A DNA stretch of 32,162 nt, taken from positions 1-32,162 of IMG/VR virus record IMGVR_UViG_3300025853_000369; one strand, written 5' to 3'. The translations under genes and the position numbers were made by a program. This DNA comes from a virus. The notes under the pieces were generated by a model that did not search any database, was not told the origin of the DNA, and saw only the letters and a program-made list of their open reading frames with translations. This document shows positions 60 through 14,257 of the stretch, one piece after another (position 1 is the first letter of the stretch; the number at the start of each line of letters is the position of its first letter).

Positions 60-683
60 TTGAGCGACTCAGCACACAAAATAACCGACAGTGATCAAAG
101 TCCCCAAGGTGGATTATTAACCGCTGGCGCCTCGACAATTGCGTCAATGTTATCTATCCCAGCCAGCAAGGTTCAGGAGCAAGCGCGCAATGCTGATGGC
201 TACGTAATCAGGATTGGTCCGAACAAGTACGACATCATTGCGACAGCTCGAAATTACATACGCGGATTAAAAGGTAAGCAGGCCGGCGTCAAGACTGAGG
301 AAGGTATAGACTTTCACGCTGAGAAAGCCCGACTCACAAAAGCCCAAGCAGACAGACAAGAAATAGAAGTGCAGAAAGCACAAGGAGTTTTGGTAGAAGC
401 TGACAAAGTAGTCAAAGCGTGGGTCGACACAATTGTCACAACTCGCAATCGACTTTTAGCAATACCGCAAAAACTATCGTATGAAATTAGCGTCACTGAT
501 GATCGCGAAGAAATAGAAAAACTATTGATGAGCGAAATGCGATCAGCGCTAACCGCTATGGAAAATCTTCAGGGCCATAATTATTCCGAAGAGGACGAGC
601 CTGAAATAGAAGCGGAACCACCTAAAGAAGAACCCAATAAGAAGCGCGGACGACCGAAAAAGAATGCTCAAAAAAGCGATTGA
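60..683 (+). CDS. Terminase small subunit (Nu1-like)
   Basis: Probable DNA-recognition subunit of the packaging motor, which binds the packaging site and recruits the large subunit. The 207-residue product has a helix-turn-helix-like N-terminal part (about residues 25-65), then a charged segment beginning FHAEKARLTKAQADRQEIE. That segment, with the following VEADKVVKAW, is characteristic of the Nu1/phage DNA-packaging family. The acidic C-terminus ends in the basic AT-hook-like stretch KKRGRPKK. The TTG at 60 is the first usable start after an in-frame stop at 36-38, but there is no clear Shine-Dalgarno, so the true start could be an internal ATG near 148. The 3' end overlaps the large terminase by 20 bases, which fits a subunit pair. 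Family call is from pattern and position. Confidence 0.8.
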   Translation: MSDSAHKITDSDQSPQGGLLTAGASTIASMLSIPASKVQEQARNADGYVIRIGPNKYDIIATARNYIRGLKGKQAGVKTEEGIDFHAEKARLTKAQADRQEIEVQKAQGVLVEADKVVKAWVDTIVTTRNRLLAIPQKLSYEISVTDDREEIEKLLMSEMRSALTAMENLQGHNYSEEDEPEIEAEPPKEEPNKKRGRPKKNAQKSD

Positions 684-2496
684 TCTTTTAAAAGAAGCAT
701 CAAAATATTGGGCGCCACCGCCAGACTTATCTGTATCTGAATGGGCAGACACTTACCGACAATTAAGCCGCGAAGCTTCCGCCGAACCTGGTAACTGGAG
801 AACGAGCAGGGCGCCATACTTTCGTGAAATTATGAACGCAACGAAAGAAAAAGGCGTGCAGAAAGTTATAGTAAAGTCGTGCAGCCAGGTTGGCAAAACG
901 GAATTAATACTGAATTTAATTGGTTATTTTGCACATAACGACCCAAGCCCTATCATGTTGGTTCAACCTACCGTTGAAATGGCTGAGGCGTTTAGTAAGG
1001 ATCGTTTGGCACCTGCAATACGCGACAGCGATGTACTGAAAGAAATATTTCCCGATCCTAAATCGAGGAACGCAGGCAACACGCTAAGACACAAAAGCTT
1101 TCCTGGGGGCCATATATCTTTGATTGGTGCCAACGCGCCAAGCTCTCTCGCTAGCAGACCTATACGAGTTTTATTGTGTGATGAAATAAACAGGTACCCA
1201 ATATCCGCCGGCAGTGAAGGTAACCCAGTTAAGCTAGCCGAAGCTCGTACAAGCACTTTTTACAACAAGTTAATTGCCTTGGTGAGCACGCCAACAACTA
1301 AGGGTGAGTGCGAAATATCAAAACACTACGAAGGATCAAGCCGAGGCAAATATCATTTGCTTTGTCCCGAGTGCGACGCCCCCAACTACATAGACCGAAA
1401 GCTTTTATCATGGCAAAAAGACGAAGACGGCAACATCAAGCAAGTAGACGCCGTGTGCAGAGAGTGCGGCGCAATATCGAGCGAGATCAGATGGAAGAAG
1501 CGAGAAGGGGTTTATGTTCACGCGGACCCACACAATAAAATACGAGGCTTCTGGCTCAATGCTTACGCGTCTACGTTCCGCACTTGGTTAGAGATCGAAA
1601 AAGAATTTCAGGTGGCGTGCAAGAATACTGAAGACCTTAAAGTATTTGTTAATACGGTATTAGCTGAAGAGTGGGAAGAGCGCGGCGAAGAAGTTGGCTT
1701 TGAAGATCTTTTGGCGCGTAGGGAATCTTACACAGAAGTGCCAGAGCAGGCCGCACTACTCACAGCCGCAATCGATACACAGAACGACCGCTTAGAGGTT
1801 GAAGTAATAGCTTGGGGTGAAGGTGACGAGTCCTGGCACATTGATTACCAAGTGCTCTACGGCGACCCAAGCAAGCCAGAGCTTTGGCAACAAATGGCAC
1901 AATTTATCGAAAAAAAGCGGTATAAATCACAATTAGGTTTTGAGCTTGGGGTAACTGCAACGTGTATTGATTTGCAGGGGCATCATACTCAGAGGGTATA
2001 TGAGTTCTGTGACATGATGCGCCCTCTAAAAGTTTGGCCGGTTCGTGGTGTTGGTGGGGAAGGTAAGCAACTTATTAAAAAAGGTAAGTCCAAAATCGGA
2101 CGCATTGGTAAAGACATAACTATTTACAATATCGCTGTAGATCAAGCAAAGCTGTGGGTGCATAGAAGACTCAAGCAGAAAGAAAAAGGCCCTGGTTATT
2201 GCCACTTTCCGATGTCAGTTGGCGAAGAGTACTTTAAGGGCCTAACTTCTGAGAAGCTAGTGCAGCGCATGAAGAACGGGCGCATGGTTAGTGAGTGGGT
2301 GCTAGGTTCACACAAAAGAAATGAACCGTTGGACATTAGAGTGTATAATTATGCTTGTATCAGAATGTTGAATCCGGTATATGCTTCGATACTTGCCAAC
2401 CTTAAGCCGACTCAACAATTCAACGACTCAACTCCAAACCCAGCATCAAGACGCAAGCGAAAACGCAGAGGCGTGTTAAGTAAGGGTATCAGATGA
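664..2496 (+). CDS. Terminase large subunit (GpA family)
   Basis: ATP-driven DNA translocase and nuclease that fills the prohead and cuts concatemers. The 610-residue length is typical of the GpA family. The Walker A-like motif is SCSQVGKTE (about residues 72-80), and the Walker B-like motif is VLLCDEINRYP (about 169-179). A CPEC...CREC zinc-finger-like pair at about 234-237 and 265-268 follows, as in other GpA proteins. The C-terminal nuclease half begins near AAIDTQNDRLEVEV (about 367) and includes the acidic CIDLQGHH segment (about 433). It overlaps the small subunit by 20 bases and ends in a 4-base ATGA overlap with the next gene, so the upstream packaging genes and the unusual secreted-protein block are translationally coupled. 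Confidence 0.95.
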   Translation: MLKKAIDLLKEASKYWAPPPDLSVSEWADTYRQLSREASAEPGNWRTSRAPYFREIMNATKEKGVQKVIVKSCSQVGKTELILNLIGYFAHNDPSPIMLVQPTVEMAEAFSKDRLAPAIRDSDVLKEIFPDPKSRNAGNTLRHKSFPGGHISLIGANAPSSLASRPIRVLLCDEINRYPISAGSEGNPVKLAEARTSTFYNKLIALVSTPTTKGECEISKHYEGSSRGKYHLLCPECDAPNYIDRKLLSWQKDEDGNIKQVDAVCRECGAISSEIRWKKREGVYVHADPHNKIRGFWLNAYASTFRTWLEIEKEFQVACKNTEDLKVFVNTVLAEEWEERGEEVGFEDLLARRESYTEVPEQAALLTAAIDTQNDRLEVEVIAWGEGDESWHIDYQVLYGDPSKPELWQQMAQFIEKKRYKSQLGFELGVTATCIDLQGHHTQRVYEFCDMMRPLKVWPVRGVGGEGKQLIKKGKSKIGRIGKDITIYNIAVDQAKLWVHRRLKQKEKGPGYCHFPMSVGEEYFKGLTSEKLVQRMKNGRMVSEWVLGSHKRNEPLDIRVYNYACIRMLNPVYASILANLKPTQQFNDSTPNPASRRKRKRRGVLSKGIR

Positions 2497-2798
2497 AAAA
2501 ATTAATCCTTTTGTTAGTTCTCTCGATGTTTAGCTTTAGTGCTACTGCTCAAGTCGGCGGCTATACGATGATTGGCAGGTGGACTTGCGCTGATGTGTTA
2601 GACAACACCGAGGAAGAGTACAACATACTAACGTGGTGGACTCATGGCTTTTTAGCTGCAAAAGGCGATGAGCATCACAACGATCCTGAAAAAGAAGTTG
2701 CGTTTACAGCCAAGATTTTAGAGCTATGTCAGTTGCAACCAAGCATTACAATTTACGACGCGACAAAAGCCACTTTCATGTGGGGTGGGTATGAATAG
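2493..2798 (+). CDS. Small secreted HdeA/Rap1a-like protein
   Basis: A 101-residue protein with a clear Sec signal peptide: MKK, a hydrophobic core LILLLVLSMFSFS, and a likely cut after ATA. The mature part is about 82 residues. It has a WTCADVL...WWTHGFLAA...ILELCQLQP pattern with two cysteines likely to form a disulfide. The spacing of Cys, Trp-x-x-Gly-Phe and second Cys recalls the periplasmic HdeA/Rap1a-type helical fold, whose members act as acid chaperones or immunity proteins; that relationship is inferred from pattern only. Its ATG overlaps the terminase stop (ATGA), and its own 3' end overlaps the following heme-protein gene by 8 bases. It may act in the periplasm with that neighbour. 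Such a protein is unexpected next to terminase. Confidence 0.6.
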   Translation: MKKLILLLVLSMFSFSATAQVGGYTMIGRWTCADVLDNTEEEYNILTWWTHGFLAAKGDEHHNDPEKEVAFTAKILELCQLQPSITIYDATKATFMWGGYE

Positions 2799-5748
2799 GT
2801 TAATAATTTTCTGTGTAGCGTTTTTATCTGCTTTTGCTAACGCGGTCCCGTCTGATCATGGTGTTGACTATGACATTATTTACGTCCGATACCCTGCTAA
2901 CAATGTTGATGGCGGGCTTTATGTAAACATACCTCAAGGTGAGAAAGCATATCGCATAGAAGGTGGTGCGGATTTAATGCGACTGTCTCCCAATGGCGCG
3001 ACTGAAATTATTGTTGAGTGTGATAATACTTGCTCGATAATGGACCCTTACGTCAGTTACGACGGCACTACTGTTTACTACAGCAAGATGTTAGACATAG
3101 ACCAGTCAACTAGAGACGCTCACGAAGATGTTGCAGGTTATATTTATAAAGTAGATGTTAGCGGCGGGGCTCCGTACACAGAGGTGCAGCTAACTTATCC
3201 TGGCACTTTTGATTGCTCAAAACATTCTGGGAATGTTAATGCTGACGATGATATGTCATCTTTTACTAATATCAGAGACATGGCCCCAGTGCCGTTAAGC
3301 AACGGAGATTTGCTATTCACATCAAACCGACACTGTAACATAGGGTTCAATCTTGATCCGCAGATACACAGAAACCCAGTGCAAGCAATGTATTTGATGA
3401 GCGACCATGACGGGACCGCAAACAGTCCAGAGCTTTCTAACATGCGTCGAATTGATAATAGTAATATGTCAATGGTGCAGCACCCTATGCAACTCAAAGA
3501 TGGTAGGATTTTGTTTTCAACTTGGCAGGATGTCGCGGGCAAATTTACGTATGCAATGACCCCCCTTTTCACAATGTATCCCGATGGTAGTAACCTGCAA
3601 CAATTCACTGAGCCGCACGATAAGAATAAAAACGTCGAGCATTTTATAACTCAACTAGCTAATGAGGCTATTGTAGCCGGTTGGTATTATCCATCATTTG
3701 ATTTTGGGTTCGGTGGTTTTCTCAGATACCCGATAGACCCTCCCGGCCAAGACTGGCTAAAGGAATCTATTACACAGCGGCATGTGGGTTGGTCAACATC
3801 CCTTATTAGTTTTAGGAAATTTGACCGGGTAGGCACTGAGTACATAACAACACACACTACAAACAAAGACACTATTGCGCCTAACCGCTCCGGCAAATAC
3901 TCAATGCCTAGCGCTGGGAAATATGGTGATATGCTTGTTGCATACAGTCAGGGTTATGTGAATTATTTTGGCTCATCATGCGCTCCAAGTAGTCAGTTTT
4001 CATCACCTTTCACTCAAATTAATAACTACTCATACCCGGATAACAATTGTGAAAACCTAAGGTCAGGAATCTATTTATTTAAAGACGCCGAAACAGCTAA
4101 AGTCGATGACCCGACCGACAGCGCACAGCTTGCTGTAATGATAGATGACCCTGCACATAACGAGATTTGGCCACGTGCATTAGTTCCATATAGTGCAATT
4201 TATAGCGTTGCTGCACCTGCCGTTATCCCGAGCACTAGGGAAACTGCCAACAATGTTCGTCTGGCTAAAGGTGAGCAGGCCGCTATTGTTGGCACTAGCT
4301 CAATGTATAACCGGGAATCCGCTGTTATTGGGTTTTCTCCAGATGGCGCAACAATACCCAATACTAGCAGGGATCAAAACCCAATCGCAAACTATAGGAT
4401 TCAAGGGACTGATGTAGGCGTTTATACAAACAATGACATACACGCGTTCAGAATTTTAGCGATGCCAGAAACGCCTTTTACAAACACATTATCAATTAGT
4501 GGGTTTCAGGATTACGCCAGCTTGCAAGTTAAATCTAACCCGAGCTTTAAAACACCTAGAAGGTTTTCATCAACTCACAACGAAAGCTGGGAAATACTTG
4601 GCGAGTTCCCACTGGCGCATAAGGCTGTTACAGATTTACAAGGCAATCCCGACACAAGCTGGCAAGCTAAAATACCTGCAAATACGCCAACAACAATCCA
4701 AGCCATCGACATTAACGGAATGACTTTGAATTCTGAAACCGTGTGGCGTGCACTGTCACCAGGGGAAGAACGAACAGACTGCGGCGGCTGTCACGTTCAC
4801 AGTGTTGAAGTTTCACCGCTGGACTTTGCAACTACTGAAACTGGCAAGGGCATGCCTATTCAGAATATAACCGGCGTATCAAATGACGACCCACGCATTC
4901 AAAATTCAATTGTTGATTTAAGCACTGATTCAGTTCCGTTGTTAGACGCTGTTGGTGGTGTCGAATGGCGAACTGGCGGAAGCGTTCAAATAGAATACAC
5001 GACAGATATACAACCTATCATTGATGCTAATTGCATGGCGTGCCACACGGCGACAGGTGATAACGGTGGTTTGGTTTTAGACACTGACCCTTGGGTTACT
5101 TTGACTAACTTTGACAAGTCCGACAGTACATATAATGGTAGAAGGCCGCAGCAAAGCAAATATATAAGAAACCCTCAAGCTAGAAATAGCTTGTTTGTAT
5201 GGGTTGCTTGGGATCAGCGGTTAGACGGAAGAGACAACGCAGACAGAGCCGACGACATAGATTTTCCAAACGCTCACCCTGTTGTAAATTTATCTGACGC
5301 AGACAAGCGCACAATATCTCGATGGGTTGATATTGGAGCGCCGATCAATATACCTGGAATTGCTGACGACGGATTCAAGTACACTGACGATAATCAATTG
5401 CCGATAATTGATTTTTATTCCCCATCTCGCGATTCTGCACCAGTCAATCAGCGGCTTAGATTTGGTGTTACAGATGCGCAAACGGGTGTTGATTGGACCA
5501 CGTTAGCCATAACTTATTATGACGTGGCATCGCCTGGAACTGTCCTAACTGTTTCGACATTTATCCGCGATGATGTTGGCGTAGTTAGCGCGCAAATGCC
5601 TAGTTTGACTGTTGGTAATGACTACGTTTTCAAAGTCACGGTTGATGATAACAATGGAAATACACAGATTGCTACAAGTAGATTCACCGCTCTAGCCGCC
5701 GTAGATAAGCCGGCGCAGGTTGAAAATATACAGGTGCAAGTGCAATGA
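2791..5748 (+). CDS. Secreted di-heme beta-propeller protein (hydrazine-synthase-alpha-like family)
   Basis: An exported 985-residue protein predicted to carry two covalent c-type hemes. The ATG at 2791 gives a clean signal peptide with cleavage after ANA; a GTG at 2785 is also in frame but less likely. Residues about 40-440 have TolB/propeller-like blades, for example LMRLSPNG and HPMQLKDGRILFSTWQD. IPANTP (628-633) then leads through PGEERTD to the first heme site C664-G-G-C667-H668. This arrangement is characteristic of proteins annotated as hydrazine synthase alpha-like. A second site, C748-M-A-C751-H752, follows IQPIID in a cytochrome-c-like domain. The last 90 residues look like an Ig/Fn3 sandwich. 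Most relatives of this type do not make hydrazine, so the substrate is unknown. Heme attachment would need the host cytochrome c maturation system in the periplasm, so action in the infected cell's envelope is more likely than in the capsid. Confidence 0.75.
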   Translation: MNRLIIFCVAFLSAFANAVPSDHGVDYDIIYVRYPANNVDGGLYVNIPQGEKAYRIEGGADLMRLSPNGATEIIVECDNTCSIMDPYVSYDGTTVYYSKMLDIDQSTRDAHEDVAGYIYKVDVSGGAPYTEVQLTYPGTFDCSKHSGNVNADDDMSSFTNIRDMAPVPLSNGDLLFTSNRHCNIGFNLDPQIHRNPVQAMYLMSDHDGTANSPELSNMRRIDNSNMSMVQHPMQLKDGRILFSTWQDVAGKFTYAMTPLFTMYPDGSNLQQFTEPHDKNKNVEHFITQLANEAIVAGWYYPSFDFGFGGFLRYPIDPPGQDWLKESITQRHVGWSTSLISFRKFDRVGTEYITTHTTNKDTIAPNRSGKYSMPSAGKYGDMLVAYSQGYVNYFGSSCAPSSQFSSPFTQINNYSYPDNNCENLRSGIYLFKDAETAKVDDPTDSAQLAVMIDDPAHNEIWPRALVPYSAIYSVAAPAVIPSTRETANNVRLAKGEQAAIVGTSSMYNRESAVIGFSPDGATIPNTSRDQNPIANYRIQGTDVGVYTNNDIHAFRILAMPETPFTNTLSISGFQDYASLQVKSNPSFKTPRRFSSTHNESWEILGEFPLAHKAVTDLQGNPDTSWQAKIPANTPTTIQAIDINGMTLNSETVWRALSPGEERTDCGGCHVHSVEVSPLDFATTETGKGMPIQNITGVSNDDPRIQNSIVDLSTDSVPLLDAVGGVEWRTGGSVQIEYTTDIQPIIDANCMACHTATGDNGGLVLDTDPWVTLTNFDKSDSTYNGRRPQQSKYIRNPQARNSLFVWVAWDQRLDGRDNADRADDIDFPNAHPVVNLSDADKRTISRWVDIGAPINIPGIADDGFKYTDDNQLPIIDFYSPSRDSAPVNQRLRFGVTDAQTGVDWTTLAITYYDVASPGTVLTVSTFIRDDVGVVSAQMPSLTVGNDYVFKVTVDDNNGNTQIATSRFTALAAVDKPAQVENIQVQVQ

Positions 5749-6158
5749 AGATTAGAAAGTCATGGTTTTTAGCGCTGCTTTTAATACCGACTTTAGCAAT
5801 TGCGCTAACTGTAACGGATGTTGTTACGCCTGGTCGCGTTGAAAATGGTTCGCTAGTTTCTGACGCTGAAGAAGATGCGCCGCCGCCTGCTTTTGGTAAT
5901 ATTCAAGGTTCTGGCAATGTTACTATTGGATGGGATCCGGTCGTTGCAGATGACCAAGGCCAGCCGATTACGCTAAAATCATATGAGTTGAGAATTAGAT
6001 TAGTTGGCGCACCCACTTATACTTTTATAGCTGTTCCGCCGGAATTTACAGGGCACGCATTAACGTTAAGCGCAGGTGATTACGAGGGATTTGTGGAAGC
6101 TATTGGCGTAAGTGGATACATAGCAACGGCTGCAACTTTCAACCTAACGGTGAATTAA
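5745..6158 (+). CDS. Secreted fibronectin-type-III-like protein
   Basis: The 137-residue product begins MKIRKSWFLALLLIPTLAIA, a strong Sec signal peptide. The mature protein has an acidic, proline-containing linker (EEDAPPPAF, near residues 45-53). A single beta-sandwich follows with the Fn3-like pattern NVTIGWDPV...ITLKSYELRIR...YEGFVEAIGVSGY. It starts in an ATGA overlap with the heme-protein gene, so the two are coupled and probably made together. It may be an adhesion or docking partner for the propeller protein. No catalytic motif is visible. It is the third consecutive exported product of this block. Confidence 0.6.
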   Translation: MKIRKSWFLALLLIPTLAIALTVTDVVTPGRVENGSLVSDAEEDAPPPAFGNIQGSGNVTIGWDPVVADDQGQPITLKSYELRIRLVGAPTYTFIAVPPEFTGHALTLSAGDYEGFVEAIGVSGYIATAATFNLTVN

Positions 6159-6159
6159 A

Positions 6160-7176
6160 ATGGCGGTAACATTAAATAATTTTCAACATTTAAACGCGGG
6201 GGACTCTTACACCGCGCCAGCCGGAAGCAATAGGCTTGTTGTTATAATTCCAATGATGCGCGAGCTGACCTCATTCCTAGTCAATGAGCTAAGAATGGGT
6301 TCTCAAGTTGCAACTGCGCTAATTGCTAATCAAGAGGACACTACATCGGGCAACGTCCTAATATCCGGCGTTTATTATATTAAAGAGGCTGATATACCAG
6401 CCGGTGCCAATGCAATAGATATAGACTGGATTGATAACCAAGGTGCTGGATTAGGTACAATAACAACAAACAAAGGTCCCTCGGCGTCTGTAGCGTTTAC
6501 ATTATTTGATTTTGACCAAGCATCAACACCGTATTTTGAAAACCCTGTTTCGGTTTTAAACCAAAACGTCACAGGCACTTCGGTATTGAGTAATAACTAT
6601 GGTGCAAATACTGGCAAGTTTGCGATTGGGGCTTGTCTTTCAGCGGGCTCAATTAATGAGCTTTACACCATAACGTCAACTCTAGGTGATTTGGTTAGTC
6701 AAGCTTCTACATCGGCGGTCGTGGGTGGAAGTAATGCATCGGCTGTGCATTGGCGCGTAAATAAAATTGACTCGCTGGCTAGCGACAGTGAATCAACACA
6801 ATTTACGGTGGATTATCCTAGCTCTGGATCTAGTAGCGCGGGCGCAAGGATGAACCAGGCATATGCTTTAGTATTCGATGGAGTCGCATCAAACCCAGCT
6901 GTTACAGTAGATCAAGCCAATATTGAGCCAGGCGGTGTGCTCTCAGGTACTTATTCAAACTTCACGGCAGGTACGCCGCCGACGTCGCCAATCAGCATTA
7001 GCGACGGAACAAACAGCATTACTGTACCCGTTGTTATTAGCGACAACGGAGACGGTACAGGAACATATACAACAGTTGGTGCTGGAACTGGCGCACTTCC
7101 GGTTTTACCCTCTGTTGGAACAAGCATTTCATTTGTGCTTTTTGGAAACGTTACAGTAACTCTTGACGACGCTTAG
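6160..7176 (+). CDS. Probable beta-rich virion or surface protein, unknown function
   Basis: A 338-residue protein with no signal peptide. It is rich in Thr, Ser, Gly, Val and Asn, as expected for extended beta structure. The N-terminal two thirds (VTLNNFQHLNAGDSYTAP... to about residue 240) resembles a jelly-roll-like phage structural domain. The C-terminal part (about 245-338, AVTVDQANIEPGGVLSGTYSNF...) resembles an Ig-like sandwich. Only two bases separate its ATG from the preceding stop, and a weak GGTGA sits upstream. Lack of a signal peptide suggests it works in the virion, for instance as a head or tail decoration, unlike the three exported proteins before it. I do not recognise the family. 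Confidence 0.45.
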   Translation: MAVTLNNFQHLNAGDSYTAPAGSNRLVVIIPMMRELTSFLVNELRMGSQVATALIANQEDTTSGNVLISGVYYIKEADIPAGANAIDIDWIDNQGAGLGTITTNKGPSASVAFTLFDFDQASTPYFENPVSVLNQNVTGTSVLSNNYGANTGKFAIGACLSAGSINELYTITSTLGDLVSQASTSAVVGGSNASAVHWRVNKIDSLASDSESTQFTVDYPSSGSSSAGARMNQAYALVFDGVASNPAVTVDQANIEPGGVLSGTYSNFTAGTPPTSPISISDGTNSITVPVVISDNGDGTGTYTTVGAGTGALPVLPSVGTSISFVLFGNVTVTLDDA

Positions 7177-7188
7177 AGTATTTAAAAA

Positions 7189-10128
7189 ATGGCAACAGCA
7201 ACAAGTAGTGCTCTACCGCTAAACACAAATACAGGGCGTTCTGTCGTCACGCTGACGAGTTATGCGGGGCCGATAACTTGGACCACAGCCCCGGTCTCGG
7301 GTGACCAGATTGAATTCCCCGATGCAATAACTGTTGGCGTTGATGGTCAAATTTCTGGTGCAGCTGGTACTTACACAGTGCGTCACATTGTTGCGACAAC
7401 TGGAGCGACTCAAGCAGTAAGCTATGTTTTATCCGCTGGAAATAACGCAAGTGTTGGTATTGAGTTAGTCACTGACAACGTAGATTCACTAAATTACGTT
7501 ACATTAACTAGCTATTCAGGGCCTATTACTTTTCCCACGACGCCAGTTGCGGGTGATCAAATAGTTTTCCCCATTGGCGTTACAATAGATGAAACGGGCG
7601 CTGTAACTGCGCCTACAGCTACTTATACGGTTTATCATATAGTCGCTAGTACAGGCGTATTCGAGGCAGTTAGCTATGCGCATTCCGCTGGCGCTAATAC
7701 CGCGCCGGTTTTCTCAACGCTTCCAGATGTTGTGGCAAATATTGGCGACGTGGCTAGCATTTCCGTAGCTGCATTTGATCCCGATACGGGCGACGTTTTA
7801 ACGTATTCACACGATGTTTTACCAGGCGGTTTAAGTCGCACAGGGGATAGCGTCACAGGTACTTACACGACCGAAGAAACAGTTTTAACAACGTTCGGCG
7901 TGCAAGATGATTCTGGCGACACTGGAAACGATTCTGACAGCGCACAGGTTTTATTTAGTGTTGCTCGTGCGGGTTACACAATAACGACGCTTGCAGTTAA
8001 TTACGCGGGGTTGAATCCCGACTCACCGCTTGTCGCTGCAATAACGGATAGTGATTTAACTGTTGGTGACCAAGTTGATTACCCTCAAACGCAAACTGAC
8101 CAAGGTGGCGATACTCGCACATTAACTTTTGCTGATGACGGACTTTTAACCGCTGCTGGTGGTACGCGCTCATTATTCATCGATGACGTTTATATCCGTG
8201 ATTCTAGCAACTCATATACTCGAGTTGGGCCGTTTGATATAACCTTGGTGGGTACTGGTCCCGTTTTAACTGCCGCGTTAACTGTTGTATCAAGTAGCGA
8301 AACAACATCAGGCGGGCAATTAAATTTCACAGCTGATGAATCAGGCAATTATCGATTAATTGTTGTTACAAGTGGATTCGGCACACCGACAGCTGACCAA
8401 GTGTTCGCGGGACTTGGGCCCGATGGTAATGCGCCGTTATTTGATAGTGGCTTAACTGCACAAACTGCGACAGTTTCAGAGACGGTTACAGTAACAGGAT
8501 TGCCAACAGCCGGTGCAGGTTATTGGTGTTTCCTAGCGCTTGAAGATCAATATGGTGGTTTGACACTTTCGGGCCCGACTACGCTTTCGACTCTTGCGGT
8601 TGGTCAGCCCCCTGTTTGGGCGGCGATACCTAACCAAGCATGGTCTGAAGGCACAGCCGTTAGCCTGGATTTTAGAACATACGCAACTGATGCGGTGAGC
8701 TTTTCAATTTCAGGTTTGCCGGTTGGCACTGGTTTGACTTTAAACCCTACTACGGGAGTATTAAGCGGGACGCCCAATCAAATAGACGCGTCTGGCGTGC
8801 CAGGCTCTACAACTACTTACACGCTTATAGCGACGGCAACGAACGCTACCGGTTCAAGTAACCAATCATTTTTAGCGGGTGTTTACAGGCTTAATCCGCC
8901 AACAAACACAGGTGTTATTGCTGCACAAAGCTGGAAAGAAACTATTGCGGTTAATTTGAGTCTTTCCAGTTTTATAAGCGGCGCAACAAGCTATCAAATT
9001 GAGTATGACAATAGTGGCACTTTTGAAGATGCTACCGCTTCATTGACTGGATACGGTATTACTTTTAACAGTAGTACTGGCCAAATTTCTGGTGCACCTA
9101 ACGCATTTATGCCGTTAGATAGTCCTATCGACTACAGGGTTAGAGGTGTTAATGCAGATGGCGATGGCGATTGGCTAGCGTTCACGGCAAGCATTGCGGC
9201 ACTTGCTCCACCAGTTTTCAGCGGCCCTATACCGGCGCAGTCTCTTTCACAAGGTACGGCTTTTAGCTTTGATTTAGGGGTTTATTTTAGCAACTTCGAC
9301 AGCATAAGCGGTTCAGGGTTACCTGTTGGAACTGGTCTTACTTTATCTAGCTTGGGTGTTTTGTCTGGTACGCCATTAGCGGTAGATGTCAGCGCAAGCC
9401 CAATCACTTTGACGCTTACGGCAACTAATACAGATGGTACAGCGCAAGGCACTGTCACGTTAAACGTTGCGGCGGCTAGCTTACCTATATTAATTGCAAG
9501 CTTCCCTGATCTTTCTTACAGCATAGGCTCAGCGGTAAATATTAATTTTGACTCATATATTACAAATGCGAGCAGCTATACAGTAAGCGGCCTACCTTCT
9601 GGAACAGGTACAACCATTTTATCAAATGGGTTAGGCGGAACCTGGGCGCAGGAAGATAGCGACGCGTCCCCTTATGTAATCGTAGTTACTGGAATAAATG
9701 ATAACGGGCAAGTGCAGGATGCTTTCCAGCTTTCAAGCCTTGCGGCACCTTCTCCAATAGTAAGAATATATGACCCTTACGCAGAAATTGATAAATTTCA
9801 CGGTGACAAATTCCGCGCTAGAGTTAAAGCAGGTGGAAGTAATTGGACTCAGATACAGTTATATAACGATGGTTCACCGCATCTTTTGAATAACTACACT
9901 GAGTTAAGAGTACAATTTTCAGACGGCACAAATACATATACGGGTAGTAGCTTAACAAACCCTGAATTTTTCGATGTCTCCCCAGGTGAGGGTAAATTTA
10001 ACGTTAGGTTGGGCAGGTTCAATGTGCCCGCAGGTATTTACTTAACCGACGTTTATTACTTTGACCTTGAGCACTCGAACGGGGTTCTGTTCACAGATGA
10101 CCGAAATTTTGTGGTAACTGTGTTATGA
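7189..10128 (+). CDS. Large Ig-like repeat fibre or adhesin protein
   Basis: A 979-residue beta-repeat protein without a signal peptide. It opens with two similar units (residues about 19-85 and 103-169), each containing TLTSY[AS]GPIT...GDQI.FP...TYTV.HIVA.TG...AVSY; a third, diverged copy may lie near 264-350. A cadherin-like domain follows at about 172-255. Four or so putative-Ig (He_PIG-like) domains lie at about 475-770, with hallmarks such as SGLPVGTGLTL...GVLSGTP. The last 125 residues (IVRIYDPYAEIDKF... to the end) form a separate domain that could anchor it to the virion. Domains of this type commonly bind cell-surface polymers. The stop codon overlaps a tiny ORF by ATGA. It is most likely an accessory fibre, though its place next to terminase rather than in the tail-tip cluster is odd. 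Confidence 0.6.
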   Translation: MATATSSALPLNTNTGRSVVTLTSYAGPITWTTAPVSGDQIEFPDAITVGVDGQISGAAGTYTVRHIVATTGATQAVSYVLSAGNNASVGIELVTDNVDSLNYVTLTSYSGPITFPTTPVAGDQIVFPIGVTIDETGAVTAPTATYTVYHIVASTGVFEAVSYAHSAGANTAPVFSTLPDVVANIGDVASISVAAFDPDTGDVLTYSHDVLPGGLSRTGDSVTGTYTTEETVLTTFGVQDDSGDTGNDSDSAQVLFSVARAGYTITTLAVNYAGLNPDSPLVAAITDSDLTVGDQVDYPQTQTDQGGDTRTLTFADDGLLTAAGGTRSLFIDDVYIRDSSNSYTRVGPFDITLVGTGPVLTAALTVVSSSETTSGGQLNFTADESGNYRLIVVTSGFGTPTADQVFAGLGPDGNAPLFDSGLTAQTATVSETVTVTGLPTAGAGYWCFLALEDQYGGLTLSGPTTLSTLAVGQPPVWAAIPNQAWSEGTAVSLDFRTYATDAVSFSISGLPVGTGLTLNPTTGVLSGTPNQIDASGVPGSTTTYTLIATATNATGSSNQSFLAGVYRLNPPTNTGVIAAQSWKETIAVNLSLSSFISGATSYQIEYDNSGTFEDATASLTGYGITFNSSTGQISGAPNAFMPLDSPIDYRVRGVNADGDGDWLAFTASIAALAPPVFSGPIPAQSLSQGTAFSFDLGVYFSNFDSISGSGLPVGTGLTLSSLGVLSGTPLAVDVSASPITLTLTATNTDGTAQGTVTLNVAAASLPILIASFPDLSYSIGSAVNINFDSYITNASSYTVSGLPSGTGTTILSNGLGGTWAQEDSDASPYVIVVTGINDNGQVQDAFQLSSLAAPSPIVRIYDPYAEIDKFHGDKFRARVKAGGSNWTQIQLYNDGSPHLLNNYTELRVQFSDGTNTYTGSSLTNPEFFDVSPGEGKFNVRLGRFNVPAGIYLTDVYYFDLEHSNGVLFTDDRNFVVTVL
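7243..7695 (+). repeat. Tandem coding repeat inside the fibre gene
   Basis: Two units of about 200 bases (7243-7443 and 7495-7695) encode homologous 67-residue segments separated by about 17 residues. They share TLTSY.GPIT, GDQI.FP, TYTV.HIVA and AVSY at the same spacing. The DNA copies have diverged clearly, so the duplication is not recent. Confidence 0.7.
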
Positions 10129-10181
10129 GAATAGAAATGCAGCACAACATTGATCAAGTTGCGACTATGGCGGGTTTATGA
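10125..10181 (+). CDS. 18-codon ORF, possible truncated copy of the next gene's start
   Basis: A tiny ORF (MRIEMQHNIDQVATMAGL) exactly bridges the fibre gene and the next gene, starting in an ATGA overlap with the first and overlapping the ATG of the second. Its sequence matches the start of the downstream protein (MRVILSHNLDDISRQLSG) at M, R, H, N and D in register, with conservative I/V and I/L changes. It could be a leader peptide that couples translation or a vestige of a duplicated gene start. There is no strong ribosome site. Confidence 0.35.
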   Translation: MRIEMQHNIDQVATMAGL

Positions 10182-10834
10182 GAGTTATCTTATCACATAA
10201 TCTTGATGACATATCTAGGCAGCTTTCAGGGATAGAGCGTGAGGCGGTAAGGCCGGCAGCTAAGGCGGCTATGGGTAACGCTATAAGGTATACTGAAGTT
10301 AGAACAGTTAGATGGGTTAGGAAAAGGCTTAGCGAAAAAGGGTTGAAACTTAGGAATAAGGATATAAGAGACAAAAACATTGTTTATATGATAAAGCCTG
10401 GGTTTCAGAAAGGTAGATATTCAGCATCGGTTGGCGGTGGAATTTATGAGGCAATAACTGGCGTTGTTTATATAAATAAATTTGGCTCAAGAATGTCAAC
10501 AAGTAGAGGGTTTACGGAGGCCGACGCAAACAGCATAAACGCTAAGCCTGAAAAAGGTCAACCGGTTAAAGGTAGAGCTTTCAAGTTCATAGGCAGAACA
10601 AGCGGTTCTGAAATGTGGGGGAAAAGACACCCTACCATAAGGTATGACGATAGATTCCCCGGACACAAGAACGCATGGAGATCGAGCAAAGCTATTGCGT
10701 TATATTACAGGGCTAAAATAGAGGGTAGCGATAAGGCAACCAGGGTTTTGGGTAAGTTAGGTGAGCGACAATTTTATAAGAGATTTAATTATCATCTTCA
10801 AAGGCGAATAGATAGAATTTGGAGGCGTCAGTGA
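10178..10834 (+). CDS. Minor tail protein Z-like / tail completion protein
   Basis: A basic 218-residue protein. The N-terminal pattern is a short helix (NLDDISRQLSGIEREAVRPAAKAAMGNAIRY), then a basic stretch with paired arginines and lysines (VRKRLSEKGLKLRNK). The C-terminal helix is LGERQFYKRFNYHLQRRIDRI. This agrees in outline with the gpZ/gp10-type proteins of siphophages that help finish and attach the tail. In lambda, Z lies in the tail module just before the tail terminator gene; here it sits in front of the gpW-like and portal genes. It ends in a one-base overlap with the next gene (TGATG). The family assignment rests on pattern and is moderate. Confidence 0.55.
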   Translation: MRVILSHNLDDISRQLSGIEREAVRPAAKAAMGNAIRYTEVRTVRWVRKRLSEKGLKLRNKDIRDKNIVYMIKPGFQKGRYSASVGGGIYEAITGVVYINKFGSRMSTSRGFTEADANSINAKPEKGQPVKGRAFKFIGRTSGSEMWGKRHPTIRYDDRFPGHKNAWRSSKAIALYYRAKIEGSDKATRVLGKLGERQFYKRFNYHLQRRIDRIWRRQ

Positions 10835-11061
10835 TGGCAGGTTTAACTTTAGCGCAATGTGAGCAAAAGCTTAGCGAGTATTTAACGGCGTCTGAAAAGG
10901 TGTCCGCAAAACAATCTTACTCTATTGATGGTCGATCTTTGACCTATGCTAATATTGGAGAAATTCAAGACGCTATCGAATTCTGGGATAAGCAATGCCG
11001 TAGATTATCCCGAGGCCGAAACGGTAACATCATTGCACGGAGCATCACAGCGCGTGACTAA
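10834..11061 (+). CDS. gpW-like head-tail joining protein
   Basis: A 75-residue protein read from the ATG at 10834, which has a good GGAGG at 10821-10825. An in-frame TTG 15 bases upstream is unsupported. The sequence has the pattern GLTLAQCEQKLSEYLTASE...QSYSIDGRSLTYANIGEIQDAI.FW. This is characteristic of small gpW/DUF6148-type phage proteins placed directly before the portal. In lambda, gpW enters the filled head at the portal and forms the docking platform for the tail. It overlaps the portal start by 8 bases. Confidence 0.75.
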   Translation: MAGLTLAQCEQKLSEYLTASEKVSAKQSYSIDGRSLTYANIGEIQDAIEFWDKQCRRLSRGRNGNIIARSITARD

Positions 11062-12640
11062 AAAGACCTTGCTTGATAAATATTATGAATGGCGAGATCC
11101 GCAAAAAGCCTTATCGCGCCGTAAAGCGAAAATGACTATTGGCGCCTTGGATGGTTTCAGCGGTGCGTCACGTTCTCGCAAAAGCCTTGCCAGCTGGCGT
11201 GTAAAGTCAGGTGATAGCGGTGAAGTACTTCTAACCGATTACGATGCGCTGGTTGATAGGTCTTATGATTTAGACCGTAATAACCCAATGGCACACGGTG
11301 CCATATCAACCTTGTCTGACAATATTGTTGGCACAGGGTTGCGGGTGCAAAGTCAGATTGATGCTGAGTTCTTAGGCTTAACTGACGAGCAAGCCGACGC
11401 ATGGCAAAAAGACGCCGAGCGAGTTTTTAATATTTGGGCAAACTCTAAAATGTGCGACGCGAAAGCCGAGCAAACATTTTCAGAGATGCAAGCCACGGCT
11501 TTTATAAGCTGCTTATTGACTGGTGACGTATTCGCACAAAGGCAGTTCGTCAATAACCGAGAATTTCTAGGCACTTGTTGGCGCTTAATTGATTCTAAAA
11601 GAATATCAAACCCCGATTACGCTACAGACTCACGACGTGTGGCGGGCGGTATTGAAAGGGATTCGTTCGGTGTTCCGAATTGGTATCACATTGCAAGCGC
11701 TAACCCTGGTTCTATTATTGACCCAGCGGTTCAGTGGCGAAAGTATAGACGGCTCGCGGCTGACGGTATGAACCTTGACATACTGCACGCTTACAGAAAA
11801 AGAACTATAAACGAGCCGCGAGGTCGCCCCACTTTAGCACCTGTTATAGAAGCGTTTAAACAGTTGGGGCGCTATTTAGAAGCTGAGCTACAAGCGGCTG
11901 TTGTCAGTGGTTTGTTCACCGTTTTCATACAGAGCCCTGATGGTAATGCTGAGTTAGATTTTTATGACGGCTCTGACGAAGAGAGCAGCCCTTTAGACGC
12001 TAATTACGAAATGGGAAACGGTGCTATTGTTGGACTGGCTGAAGGTGAAACAATAAACACGGCAAACCCTGGTCGCCCGAACTCTGGTTTTGATCAGTTC
12101 GTGCTTGCTGTACTTAGGCAAATAGGTGTTGCTCTAGGGCTTCCGTACGAGCTTGTTATTAAGCATTTCACAGCGAGTTATAGTGCAAGCCGAGCGGCAC
12201 TAAACGAAGCGCAGCGCTCATTCAGGCAGCGCAGGAAGTGGTTTGGTGATAGTTTCTGTCAGCCAATTTATGAATCAGTTATAATTGAAGCAGTAGCTAA
12301 CGGAAGATTGCAAGCGCCTGGATTCTTTGCAGATTATGAAACGCGCCGAGCTTATTTAAAATCGTTGTGGGTTGGTGATGCATGGGGAAGTCTGGACCCG
12401 GTCAAAGACGTTACGGCAGCTGAGAAGCGCCTAGACTTGGGATTGACTACGCGCACTCAGGAAACTTTAGAAATAAACGGCGGCGATTACGAGAAAAACG
12501 TAAGCCAGCGCATGAAAGAATCAGAATTCGAAAGTCAGTTAGGAGTAACGAAAAATGCTAGCATTACAGAAAATGAGCCAAACCCCCTGGGCGATAACGA
12601 CCGAGAGCTTGACGACGATAGCGAAGATAGCGAAGCGTGA
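11054..12640 (+). CDS. Portal protein (lambda gpB family)
   Basis: Dodecameric ring at the unique capsid vertex through which DNA enters and leaves and onto which the terminase docks. The frame is open from 10946, but the first 36 codons would lie inside the gpW gene. The GTG at 11054 (MTKKTLLDKYYEW) is the more plausible start and gives 528 residues, in the usual range. Typical lambda-portal features include YDALVDRSYDLDRNNPMAHGAISTLSDNIVGTGL near the N-terminus, the wing/stem region with QFVLAVLRQIGVALGLPYELV, and TASYSASRAALNEAQRSFR. The 3' end overlaps the protease gene by 86 bases. Confidence 0.9.
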   Translation: MTKKTLLDKYYEWRDPQKALSRRKAKMTIGALDGFSGASRSRKSLASWRVKSGDSGEVLLTDYDALVDRSYDLDRNNPMAHGAISTLSDNIVGTGLRVQSQIDAEFLGLTDEQADAWQKDAERVFNIWANSKMCDAKAEQTFSEMQATAFISCLLTGDVFAQRQFVNNREFLGTCWRLIDSKRISNPDYATDSRRVAGGIERDSFGVPNWYHIASANPGSIIDPAVQWRKYRRLAADGMNLDILHAYRKRTINEPRGRPTLAPVIEAFKQLGRYLEAELQAAVVSGLFTVFIQSPDGNAELDFYDGSDEESSPLDANYEMGNGAIVGLAEGETINTANPGRPNSGFDQFVLAVLRQIGVALGLPYELVIKHFTASYSASRAALNEAQRSFRQRRKWFGDSFCQPIYESVIIEAVANGRLQAPGFFADYETRRAYLKSLWVGDAWGSLDPVKDVTAAEKRLDLGLTTRTQETLEINGGDYEKNVSQRMKESEFESQLGVTKNASITENEPNPLGDNDRELDDDSEDSEA

Positions 12641-13793
12641 CAACGAGCAATTAAAAGCTATCGCTAAAGAAAAAGGTGATTTAAGCAGAGAGAATAGCTT
12701 GTTGGAGTATCGCGGTTCGAATGCTGTCATTAACGTTACTGGTCCTATTTTTCGTTATGCGAATATGTTTACCGAAATTTCAGGGGCCACCAGCACTGAT
12801 GCAATTGCGAAGGCGATTGGAGAGGCTGAGCAGTCGGATGTAGAAGCAATTGTTTTTAATTTTGATTCACCTGGCGGTGAGGCTACGGAAATTAGCAACC
12901 TTGCTGAACTGATTGCGACAACTCCCAAGCCTACCGTCGCTTACGTTGGCGCTATGGCAGCAAGTGCTGGTTATTGGTTAGCTTCGGCAGCTGATGAAAT
13001 CGTAATCGGTAGCACTGGTTTGGTGGGGTCAATCGGCACTGTAGCAACTATCGACTTGAGCAGTGATGACGAGACAATCGAAATTGTGAGCAGTCAAAGC
13101 CCTAATAAGCAACTAGACGCGAGCACAGAAGAGGGTCAGCAAAGCATACAAGCGATGATTGATAAAATGGCACAAGTGTTTATTGAAAACGTTGCGATGT
13201 ATAGAAAGGTTAGCGTCGAGCATGTTATGACTTATTTTGGTAAAGGCGGCTTGCTGATGGGCGCTGAAGCGGTTGCGGCAGGTATGGCTGATAGAATTGG
13301 TTCCTTTGAAACTTTAGTAACTACTGGAGAAGTGAAAATGCAAGACGAAAACATGTTTAAACTAGAAGACTTGAACGCCGAGTTTTTGCAAGCTAATTGC
13401 GAAAGCTTATACGACAGCATTTTGGCAGAGGGTATTGCCGCAGGTGCCGAAGGTGAGCGCATGCGTATTCAGGGAATTCACGCACATTCAATGCCTGGCT
13501 TTGAGGCTTCCATAGAAGCAATGATGTTTGACGGGCAGACTAAGCCAGAGCAAGCAGCGGTGAAGCTTCTTGGTGAGATTAAAGCCCAAGGTGATAACGT
13601 AATGAATCTTGTTGCTGAGACTCAATCGCCGATTGTTGATGAACCTGTTGATAGTCGTTGTGACCTGCAAAAGCAGTGGGATGCTAACGCGGACGGATGC
13701 CGACAGGGCCCTAATAAATTCTCAAATTTTGAAAACTTCAGAGCCTATCAAGAAGGCGTGAAATCTGGAGTTATTAAGCACGTTACGCGATAA
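12555..13793 (+). CDS. Head maturation protease, S49 family (gpC-like)
   Basis: Serine protease that processes the prohead, 412 residues. The SppA/ClpP-like core has the oxyanion-loop motif DSPGG (104-108), the nucleophile in GAMAASAGYW (Ser137) and the probable general base Lys185 in QSPNKQLDAS. These correspond to the Ser/Lys dyad known for S49 phage proteases. Residues about 262-412 form a separate charged, helical domain that probably serves as scaffold. The ATG at 12555 lies 86 bases inside the portal gene but has AGGAG at 12541-12545 with 9-base spacing, so the long overlap is real. As in lambda C/Nu3 and Mu I/Z, the C-terminal part is likely also made separately. Confidence 0.9.
   Translation: MLALQKMSQTPWAITTESLTTIAKIAKRDNEQLKAIAKEKGDLSRENSLLEYRGSNAVINVTGPIFRYANMFTEISGATSTDAIAKAIGEAEQSDVEAIVFNFDSPGGEATEISNLAELIATTPKPTVAYVGAMAASAGYWLASAADEIVIGSTGLVGSIGTVATIDLSSDDETIEIVSSQSPNKQLDASTEEGQQSIQAMIDKMAQVFIENVAMYRKVSVEHVMTYFGKGGLLMGAEAVAAGMADRIGSFETLVTTGEVKMQDENMFKLEDLNAEFLQANCESLYDSILAEGIAAGAEGERMRIQGIHAHSMPGFEASIEAMMFDGQTKPEQAAVKLLGEIKAQGDNVMNLVAETQSPIVDEPVDSRCDLQKQWDANADGCRQGPNKFSNFENFRAYQEGVKSGVIKHVTR
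13338..13793 (+). CDS. Probable nested scaffolding protein (in-frame internal start)
   Basis: Within the protease gene an in-frame ATG at 13338 (protease residue 262) is preceded by GGAG at 13326-13329 with an 8-base spacer, a textbook ribosome site. The resulting 151-residue product starts MQDENMFKLEDLNAEF. It is helical and charged, and ends with QKQWDANADGC...FENFRAYQEG, a tail common in phage scaffold regions. This is the arrangement known for lambda Nu3 in gene C and Mu gpZ in gene I. The protein would direct capsid shell assembly and then be removed by the protease. Confidence 0.65.
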   Translation: MQDENMFKLEDLNAEFLQANCESLYDSILAEGIAAGAEGERMRIQGIHAHSMPGFEASIEAMMFDGQTKPEQAAVKLLGEIKAQGDNVMNLVAETQSPIVDEPVDSRCDLQKQWDANADGCRQGPNKFSNFENFRAYQEGVKSGVIKHVTR

Positions 13794-13828
13794 TTAACTT
13801 TAACCGAAACCTAAAGAGGTATTAAACC

Positions 13829-14257
13829 ATGGCAACTCTAGCCGCTGCTTCACCTCGTAAATTCACTACGAGCGAATACCAAGACTACCAAGTGGTTGCG
13901 TCTGACATTATCTACGAAGGCTCTTTGTTGGGTTTAGCGTCAGGTTACGCTCGCCCATTGCAAGCCGGTGATACTTACGTTGGGATCGCCGTTGAAACTG
14001 TTGATAATTCAGCGGGCTCAGCTGGTGATAAGAGAGTGCGAGCAGCCACAACTGTTCCATTCGTCATGGATGTGACAGGCGTATCTGATGTGACAAGCAT
14101 CAGCCTGCCCGTTTATGCATCCGACGATGACACGCTGACTTTGACCGAAAGCACTAATAGCCTAATTGGAATCGTCATGGACTATATCAGCGGTTCATCT
14201 TGCGTTATTCAGCCGATCTTGGGTAGCAAAGAGATCTACACAGACTTAAGCACTTAA
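13829..14257 (+). CDS. Head decoration protein (gpD-like)
   Basis: A 142-residue protein encoded between protease/scaffold and major capsid, the usual place for the decoration protein that cements the expanded capsid. The pattern YQDYQVVASDIIYEGSLLGLASGYARPLQAGDTYVGIAVETVDNS agrees with the small beta-rich phage head decoration/DUF2190-like proteins. A good GAGG-type ribosome site (AAAGAGGTATTAAACC) precedes the ATG, consistent with high expression. No signal peptide or catalytic motif is visible. The exact family is inferred from pattern and position. Confidence 0.75.
   Translation: MATLAAASPRKFTTSEYQDYQVVASDIIYEGSLLGLASGYARPLQAGDTYVGIAVETVDNSAGSAGDKRVRAATTVPFVMDVTGVSDVTSISLPVYASDDDTLTLTESTNSLIGIVMDYISGSSCVIQPILGSKEIYTDLST

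Follow-up and report, generated by a model that had tools for sequence, protein, structure and literature searches.

Why a phage should carry a gene for an exported protein with two c-type heme motifs among its packaging and virion genes is the question raised by the virus record IMGVR_UViG_3300025853_000369 of IMG/VR, which was analysed as a whole over 32,162 bases (the window; the record may itself be a fragment). The gene concerned, here called the hzsA-like gene, is a single open reading frame (ORF) of 985 codons with an ATG at 2791 and a stop ending at 5748. It is close to certain that this phage gene encodes an exported protein of the hydrazine synthase alpha (HzsA) family with two CxxCH motifs. 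Its role is probably that of an auxiliary gene, the product being a late-expressed, exported redox enzyme of the periplasm. A first-pass annotation made from the sequence alone had given the same ORF and the same motifs, C664-C667-H668 and C748-C751-H752, and both were found exactly as claimed.

Overall architecture and homology to HzsA

The protein is composed of the following parts, signal peptides being judged throughout by reading the sequence and not with a dedicated predictor.

2791-2844, plus strand: signal peptide spanning residues 1-18, with probable cleavage after ANA (MNRLIIFCVAFLSAFANA/V), read from the sequence
2863-4200, plus strand: beta-propeller, about residues 25-470, with H231, H284 and Y300 (Y299 in 18/19 proteins), from VIA-align and conservation
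4639-4794, plus strand: HZS_alpha middle domain (PF18582, E=3e-8), ending in heme site 1, C664-G-G-C667-H668 (4780-4794)
4798-4800, plus strand: H670, just after heme site 1, invariant in 19/19 proteins
4990-5361, plus strand: cytochrome c domain with heme site 2, C748-M-A-C751-H752 (5032-5046), from a phmmer alignment to 5c2v_A (residues 734-856)
5275-5277, plus strand: H829, candidate distal ligand of heme 2
5392-5700, plus strand: C-terminal immunoglobulin (Ig)-like end, with weak Big_3_3 and PKD matches below cut-off and rich in strands in the model

The likeness to hydrazine synthase alpha, proposed in the first-pass annotation together with a hidden Markov model search against that family, is borne out by sequence as well as by fold. 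PF18582 (HZS_alpha) is matched with 34.5 bits against a Pfam gathering score of 26.6 bits. Hydrazine synthase alpha (5c2v_A) was the sole entry returned from the PDB with the single sequence (E=2.6e-8). A profile of ten phage relatives found the same chain with E=4.1e-32 in two stretches, one covering the propeller and the other both heme domains, and the profile of the heme half alone did so with E=2.4e-24.

The predicted structure has a mean predicted local distance difference test (pLDDT) score of 56, with a good propeller and a poor heme region. Foldseek likewise gave 5c2v_A as the best match of the full-length model (E=6.8e-19), and in VIA-align the two superimpose with Z=32.8 over 488 residues at 4.3 Å, followed by TolB with Z=26.3, in agreement with the propeller-like blades described earlier. 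Folded alone, the heme half (residues 548-868, mean pLDDT 61) aligns to residues 484-805 of HzsA (226 residues, Z=13.1), and no other chain scores above Z=3.6. Helices shortly before and well after C748-H752 resemble those of a type-I cytochrome c, all models being predictions that carry no heme. As judged from sequence and models, the protein is thus a full-length, co-linear distant relative of HzsA with the propeller and both heme domains in order. A search of the predicted viral structures of BFVD recognised no HzsA-like model; its matches were generic, to propeller-like or repeat proteins, and had low template modeling (TM) scores.

Conserved residues of the heme sites

For the comparison of individual residues 19 phage and bacterial proteins were aligned. 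All 19 share six residues at heme site 1 (C664, G665, G666, C667, H668 and H670) as well as H231, H284 and Y300 of the propeller, and Y299 is present in 18/19. Heme site 2 (C748/C751/H752) is found in 18/19 proteins and is degraded in that of contig L097. A shorter relative of 666 residues, encoded on contig L024, has one CxxCH: it keeps heme site 1 and lacks heme 2. Since heme 1 and the propeller residues are invariant and heme 2 is dispensable, heme 1 together with the propeller around it represents the core and heme 2 an accessory. Conservation at this level, 19/19 for site 1 and 18/19 for site 2, rejects a chance occurrence of the CxxCH motifs. The signal peptide of the first-pass annotation also has its counterpart in every relative, a hydrophobic, export-like N-terminal stretch being present in 19/19 proteins.

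Judged by its sequence, heme 2 is probably an electron relay. Its distal loop reads MPPPGSG or similar in most bacteria and contains His-Pro in the window protein and in those of L088, L089, L091 and L132, suggesting that heme 2 of this phage clade is probably bis-His ligated and of lower potential.

Departure from hydrazine synthase and TolB

In HzsA, Tyr591 is the ligand of the heme-I iron, His587 and Cys303 are zinc ligands and His772 is the distal ligand of heme II (PMC12758564, PMC12607021). The position of Tyr591 is occupied by Val672 in the window protein and by Thr, Gln or Arg in its relatives, and the column of Cys303 is not Cys, while the CxxCH histidine of heme site 1 is retained. 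H829 falls into the column of His772 in the single-sequence alignment and is off by one in the alignment of the heme-half profile. The protein scores 46.5 bits on NF052339, the NCBIfam equivalog for hydrazine synthase alpha, which has a cut-off of 800. Among the remaining ORFs kept for the window, which may be part of a larger genome, there is no other CxxCH protein and therefore no gamma subunit on the contig; neither a beta nor a gamma partner of hydrazine synthase was found there. For non-anammox homologues with like residue losses it has been inferred that they are unable to synthesise hydrazine (PMC12758564). With the score under the cut-off and ligands and partners missing, identity as a hydrazine synthase proper was rejected; since the catalytic features of HzsA are absent, the name denotes ancestry and not activity. 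TolB was likewise rejected as an identity and is a neighbour in fold only, the window protein having no TolB match in Pfam or NCBIfam at E<=1.

Genomic context and authenticity of the phage record

Upstream of the portal gene, the late operon is arranged as follows.

60-683: terminase small subunit
664-2496, plus strand: terminase large subunit TerL of the gpA type (PF05876 E=1.7e-76, PF20454 E=3.2e-83, phrog_15 E=2e-223)
2493-2798, plus strand: HdeA/HdeB-like small protein of 101 amino acids with a signal peptide and two Cys, at the start of the cassette (PF06411 E=6.5e-11, 42.9 bits against a cut-off of 22)
2791-5748, plus strand: hzsA-like gene, predicted exported HzsA-alpha-like protein of 985 amino acids
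5745-6158, plus strand: o137, small predicted exported protein, present only alongside the cassette (45-57% identity in L088 and L089)
6160-7176, plus strand: o338, no signal peptide, its C-terminal ~90 amino acids shared with a 384-residue protein of L004
7189-10128, plus strand: ig979, He_PIG/Ig protein of 979 amino acids, no signal peptide (PF05345 E=6e-11)
10178-10834, plus strand: neck or tail-completion-like protein, downstream flank (phrog_27 E=8.5e-4)
10946-12640, plus strand: portal protein, downstream flank (PF05136 E=7e-90)

Six genes, from the HdeA-like to the neck-like one, thus fill the interval between terminase and portal, the first five of which form the cassette; signal peptides are present in the HdeA-like protein, the HzsA-like protein and o137. 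The terL stop overlaps the next start as ATGA (4 bp), the HdeA-like gene overlaps the hzsA-like gene by 8 bp and the latter overlaps o137 by 4 bp. The first-pass annotation had described the gene as coupled to both terminase and portal. It does lie between the two in the late operon, but its overlaps are with the HdeA-like gene and o137, i.e. within the cargo cassette, and the three genes from 6160 to 10834 separate o137 from the portal gene at 10946.

Elsewhere on the record an S49-type head protease, a major head protein, a tape measure, a distal tail protein and a central fibre resembling J are encoded, with a DNA polymerase on the minus strand at the far end; apart from the cassette, the record is a genuine phage late operon. 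Contig L002 (4,367 bp), which stems from another dataset, repeats the terL-hdeA-hzsA junction with 9 single-nucleotide polymorphisms (SNPs) and no SNP within the 1,780 bp of hzsA that it covers. Since the junction recurs in this near copy, and the same cassette is found in L088 and L089, an assembly chimera was rejected.

The HdeA-like counterparts in L088 and L089 are strongly diverged (27-34% identity) despite conserved neighbours, which marks this protein as fast-evolving, and they reach no Pfam family on their own. For o137, family searches return no family name, and a scan with it matches only L088 and L089.

Relatives in phages and bacteria

Scans of 2.9 million viral contigs revealed relatives on 11 distinct contigs including the window, with intact frames in all of them. 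Identity to the window protein is 56% in L088, 52% in L089, 44% in L132 and 25-28% in L091, L096, L090, L095, L097 and L098, the remaining contig being L024 with its shorter protein; across the phage relatives it spans 25-58%. Homologues between terminase and portal in other phages, for which the first-pass annotation had advised a search, are present in L088 and L089. The genome of L132 encodes an internal virion protein, a tail fibre and an endolysin, those of L091 and L096 a tape measure and tail genes, and that of L090 tail fibres, while primase, helicase or DnaB genes lie near hzsA in L095 and L098. L097 is the weakest case for a phage, its neighbours being an HNH endonuclease, virion-like proteins and phage proteins of unknown function. 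The contigs belong to unrelated phages of different kinds. The earlier remark that phages rarely, if ever, encode c-type cytochromes was accordingly too strong, given the ten further phage contigs found here and the published phage SoxD (PMC8190135).

Full-length bacterial relatives are encoded in 10/396 sampled genomes of Acidobacteriota, where they are chromosomal and stand-alone, with no consistently shared neighbour. Searches of GenBank phages (50,697 records) with the window protein, P0002, the L091 protein or P0003 gave no match, while a TerL query matches 825 of those records. Plasmid searches yielded weak partial matches only. PF18582 had no match in the L003 genome or in the control genomes, from which no absence is inferred.

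Evolution and the cargo site

The phage sequences occupy two places in a tree built from 20 proteins, and a single phage clade was rejected by the approximately unbiased (AU) test with p-AU 0.0038, to be read with the long phage branches and the sampling of bacteria from one phylum in mind. A single phage origin was discarded with the same caveats, and at least two uptakes by phages therefore follow. The protein of L097, which is 40-47% identical to bacterial proteins (alignment A7) and 28% to the window protein, is nearer to the bacteria than to the window, and this fits a separate uptake.

The whole cassette is found in the same order between terminase and portal in L088 and L089. Divergence at the three codon positions is 0.35/0.27/0.62 for hzsA vs 0.37/0.27/0.64 for terL, and the gene is therefore constrained like a core gene: it is under purifying selection. 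L004 is a sister phage with a TerL that, its intein-like insert aside, is 94% identical. In the same slot it has proteins of 480 and 384 residues plus an Ig protein, and no hzsA. The C-terminus of o338 and the N-terminus of ig979 form the common edge of this gene swap between the window and L004. With an authentic phage genome, bacterial relatives and absence from the same slot in L004, the gene has the attributes of an auxiliary or moron gene.

Between terL and portal the interval measures at most 2.2 kb in 50/55 other relatives; the window, with 8.4 kb, and L088, with 10.1 kb, exceed this. Other long intervals carry glycosyltransferase-like, methyltransferase-like and toxin-antitoxin-like genes (by inspection). 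Since they are filled with such varied genes, the terL-portal interval represents a cargo site.

Among phages with a gpA terminase and a long interval, L045, L057, L073 and L029 have genes resembling glycosyltransferases, or an antitoxin/RelE-like pair, in it. The first ~80 amino acids of ig979 (window 7189-7430) are a mobile module that is also found in L004 and in L122-L125; in the latter it lies near the packaging genes, with unrelated terminases and variable genes in front.

Proposed role and alternatives

The hzsA-like gene would be cargo, acquired as a moron or auxiliary gene from bacteria, in which exported HzsA-alpha-like proteins occur as a family of stand-alone genes. Presumably transcribed together with the late genes, its product would be exported through the Sec signal peptide and receive its hemes in the periplasm from the host cytochrome c maturation (Ccm) system, where it may then work as a redox enzyme. 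Small-molecule chemistry would most likely take place at heme 1 (CGGCHxH with H231, H284 and Y300), where it is placed because the motif and the propeller residues are invariant. Heme 2 would act as an electron relay of type-I cytochrome c; its distal ligand is probably His829, at a position where Met-Pro-Pro is found in most of the bacterial relatives. A likely benefit might be that periplasmic electron flow or detoxification continues in the late phase of infection, or in the lysate. More tentatively, such proteins might constitute a new class of phage periplasmic heme enzymes, repeatedly captured, in which the heme-1/propeller site performs an undescribed small-molecule reaction that sustains or rewires envelope electron flow in the dying cell. 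In one form of this idea, the membrane potential would be held up until the programmed time of lysis.

Several points weigh against a periplasmic redox enzyme. Heme attachment and activity are predictions from sequence and models, the full-length model having a pLDDT below 50 around both heme sites and the heme-domain model being moderate (mean 61). HzsA is the sole family member of known function and its catalytic residues are absent here. A Ccm system in the host is assumed, and the bacterial sampling covers one phylum, Acidobacteriota. Finally, the fibre-like o338 and ig979, which have no signal peptides, would also fit a role in the virion.

In such a role, the exported heme protein would be part of the fibre-like module of o338 and ig979, or bind to it after lysis, for instance by offering heme or iron as bait to host uptake receptors. 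The iron Trojan (Ferrojan) horse idea has been published (PMC11705849), the gene comes after tail, fibre or virion-like genes in L132, L090, L091 and L097, and the slot holds the proteins of 480 and 384 residues and the Ig protein in L004 and an additional 568-residue protein in L088; moreover, the N-terminal module of ig979 is exchanged among phages. However, a signal peptide directs the protein away from virion assembly in the cytoplasm, and in L095, L096 and L098 the gene is accompanied by replication or DNA-metabolism genes. As the invariant residues resemble a redox pocket rather than a surface tag and heme 2 is dispensed with in L097 and L024, we regard a virion role as unlikely. It is very unlikely that the propeller interferes with the envelope, the hemes being secondary, by competing with host TolB/Pal or by masking a receptor (superinfection exclusion, lysis aid). 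In fold only HzsA comes closer than TolB, the one-CxxCH protein of L024 weakly matches a TolB model (E=2.8e-4), and two more predicted exported proteins adjoin in the window cassette. Yet the window protein itself has no TolB family match, the fit to HzsA is better and extends over the full length, and heme site 1 is kept even in the L024 protein.

The absence of the gene from L004 and from isolate phages, together with the loss of heme 2 in L097, could also indicate a functionless passenger that was picked up from a host and is on its way out. Against this stand the cassette order, which is kept across phages whose HzsA-like proteins are just 54-58% identical, the intact frames and the terL-like codon-position divergence, which make a passenger highly improbable. 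True hydrazine or N-oxide chemistry, with a phage-supplied HzsA subunit for an anammox-type pathway, is extremely improbable: the co-linear homology over the full length and His829 at, or one residue off, His772 depending on the alignment are outweighed by the equivalog score, Val at the Tyr591 position, the missing Cys303 and the lack of a gamma subunit. A periplasmic redox enzyme is therefore the favoured role.

Comparison with known systems

The phage protein has the parts of HzsA of Kuenenia stuttgartiensis (PDB 5c2v) in unchanged order: an export signal, a propeller, an HZS_alpha domain that contains heme site 1 and a cytochrome c domain that contains site 2. At ~15-20% identity it differs by the missing Tyr591 and Cys303, by its own invariant set of H231, H284, Y300 and H670, by the extra Ig-like C-terminus and by the lack of any beta or gamma partner found. 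Closer are the stand-alone bacterial HZS_alpha-domain proteins of Acidobacteriota, for instance gene P0002 of genome G016 (37% identity over residues 3-967; cf. the homologues in PMC12758564), which share the architecture, both heme motifs and the invariant residues. Unlike the phage genes, theirs are chromosomal, most have a Met-Pro-Pro-like motif instead of His at the distal position of heme 2, and the phage branches are much longer. Phage SoxD (PMC8190135) is comparable as a bacterial periplasmic electron-transfer protein carried by metagenomic phages, although it belongs to a different family. The second cytochrome motif is missing in both published soxD contigs and the first in one of them (PMC8190135), whereas both motifs are intact here and relatives recur in 11 contigs. 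TolB-type propellers, the closest in fold after HzsA, contain no hemes.

Phage auxiliary and cytochrome-type genes are known, as in the case of SoxD (PMC8190135), while the HzsA-alpha family, its architecture and its recurrence in phages appear to be new within the searched collections and open-access papers. Outside anammox bacteria, HzsA-alpha relatives form an orphan family of heme proteins, for which phages provide a handle. That unrelated phages captured such genes repeatedly and kept them under selection, with heme site 1 strictly conserved, suggests a reaction or interaction that is useful during infection. Judging from their sequences, some phages thus seem to direct a redox protein to the envelope of the cell that they kill, which indicates the periplasm as a site of phage redox manipulation. 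Surveys of auxiliary genes based on known pathway annotations would miss such genes.

Further genes at related loci

TerL of L004 (356-3358) contains an in-frame, intein-like insert of ~390 amino acids at the Walker A motif (CSQVGK / ALSLDTPILTTHG... / HNTELIL). Directly after the HzsA-like gene of L097, a predicted exported sulfatase (12242-13981; PF00884 E=3e-49) is encoded, an unusual enzyme for a phage. In L024 a predicted exported, hydrolase-like protein of 450 amino acids (107-1459), with no Pfam match, lies just upstream of the one-heme HzsA-like gene. Near the HzsA-like gene of L098, tandem related small predicted exported proteins (5758-7806, minus strand) are found, at least one of which has an RTX-type calcium-binding repeat (PF00353).

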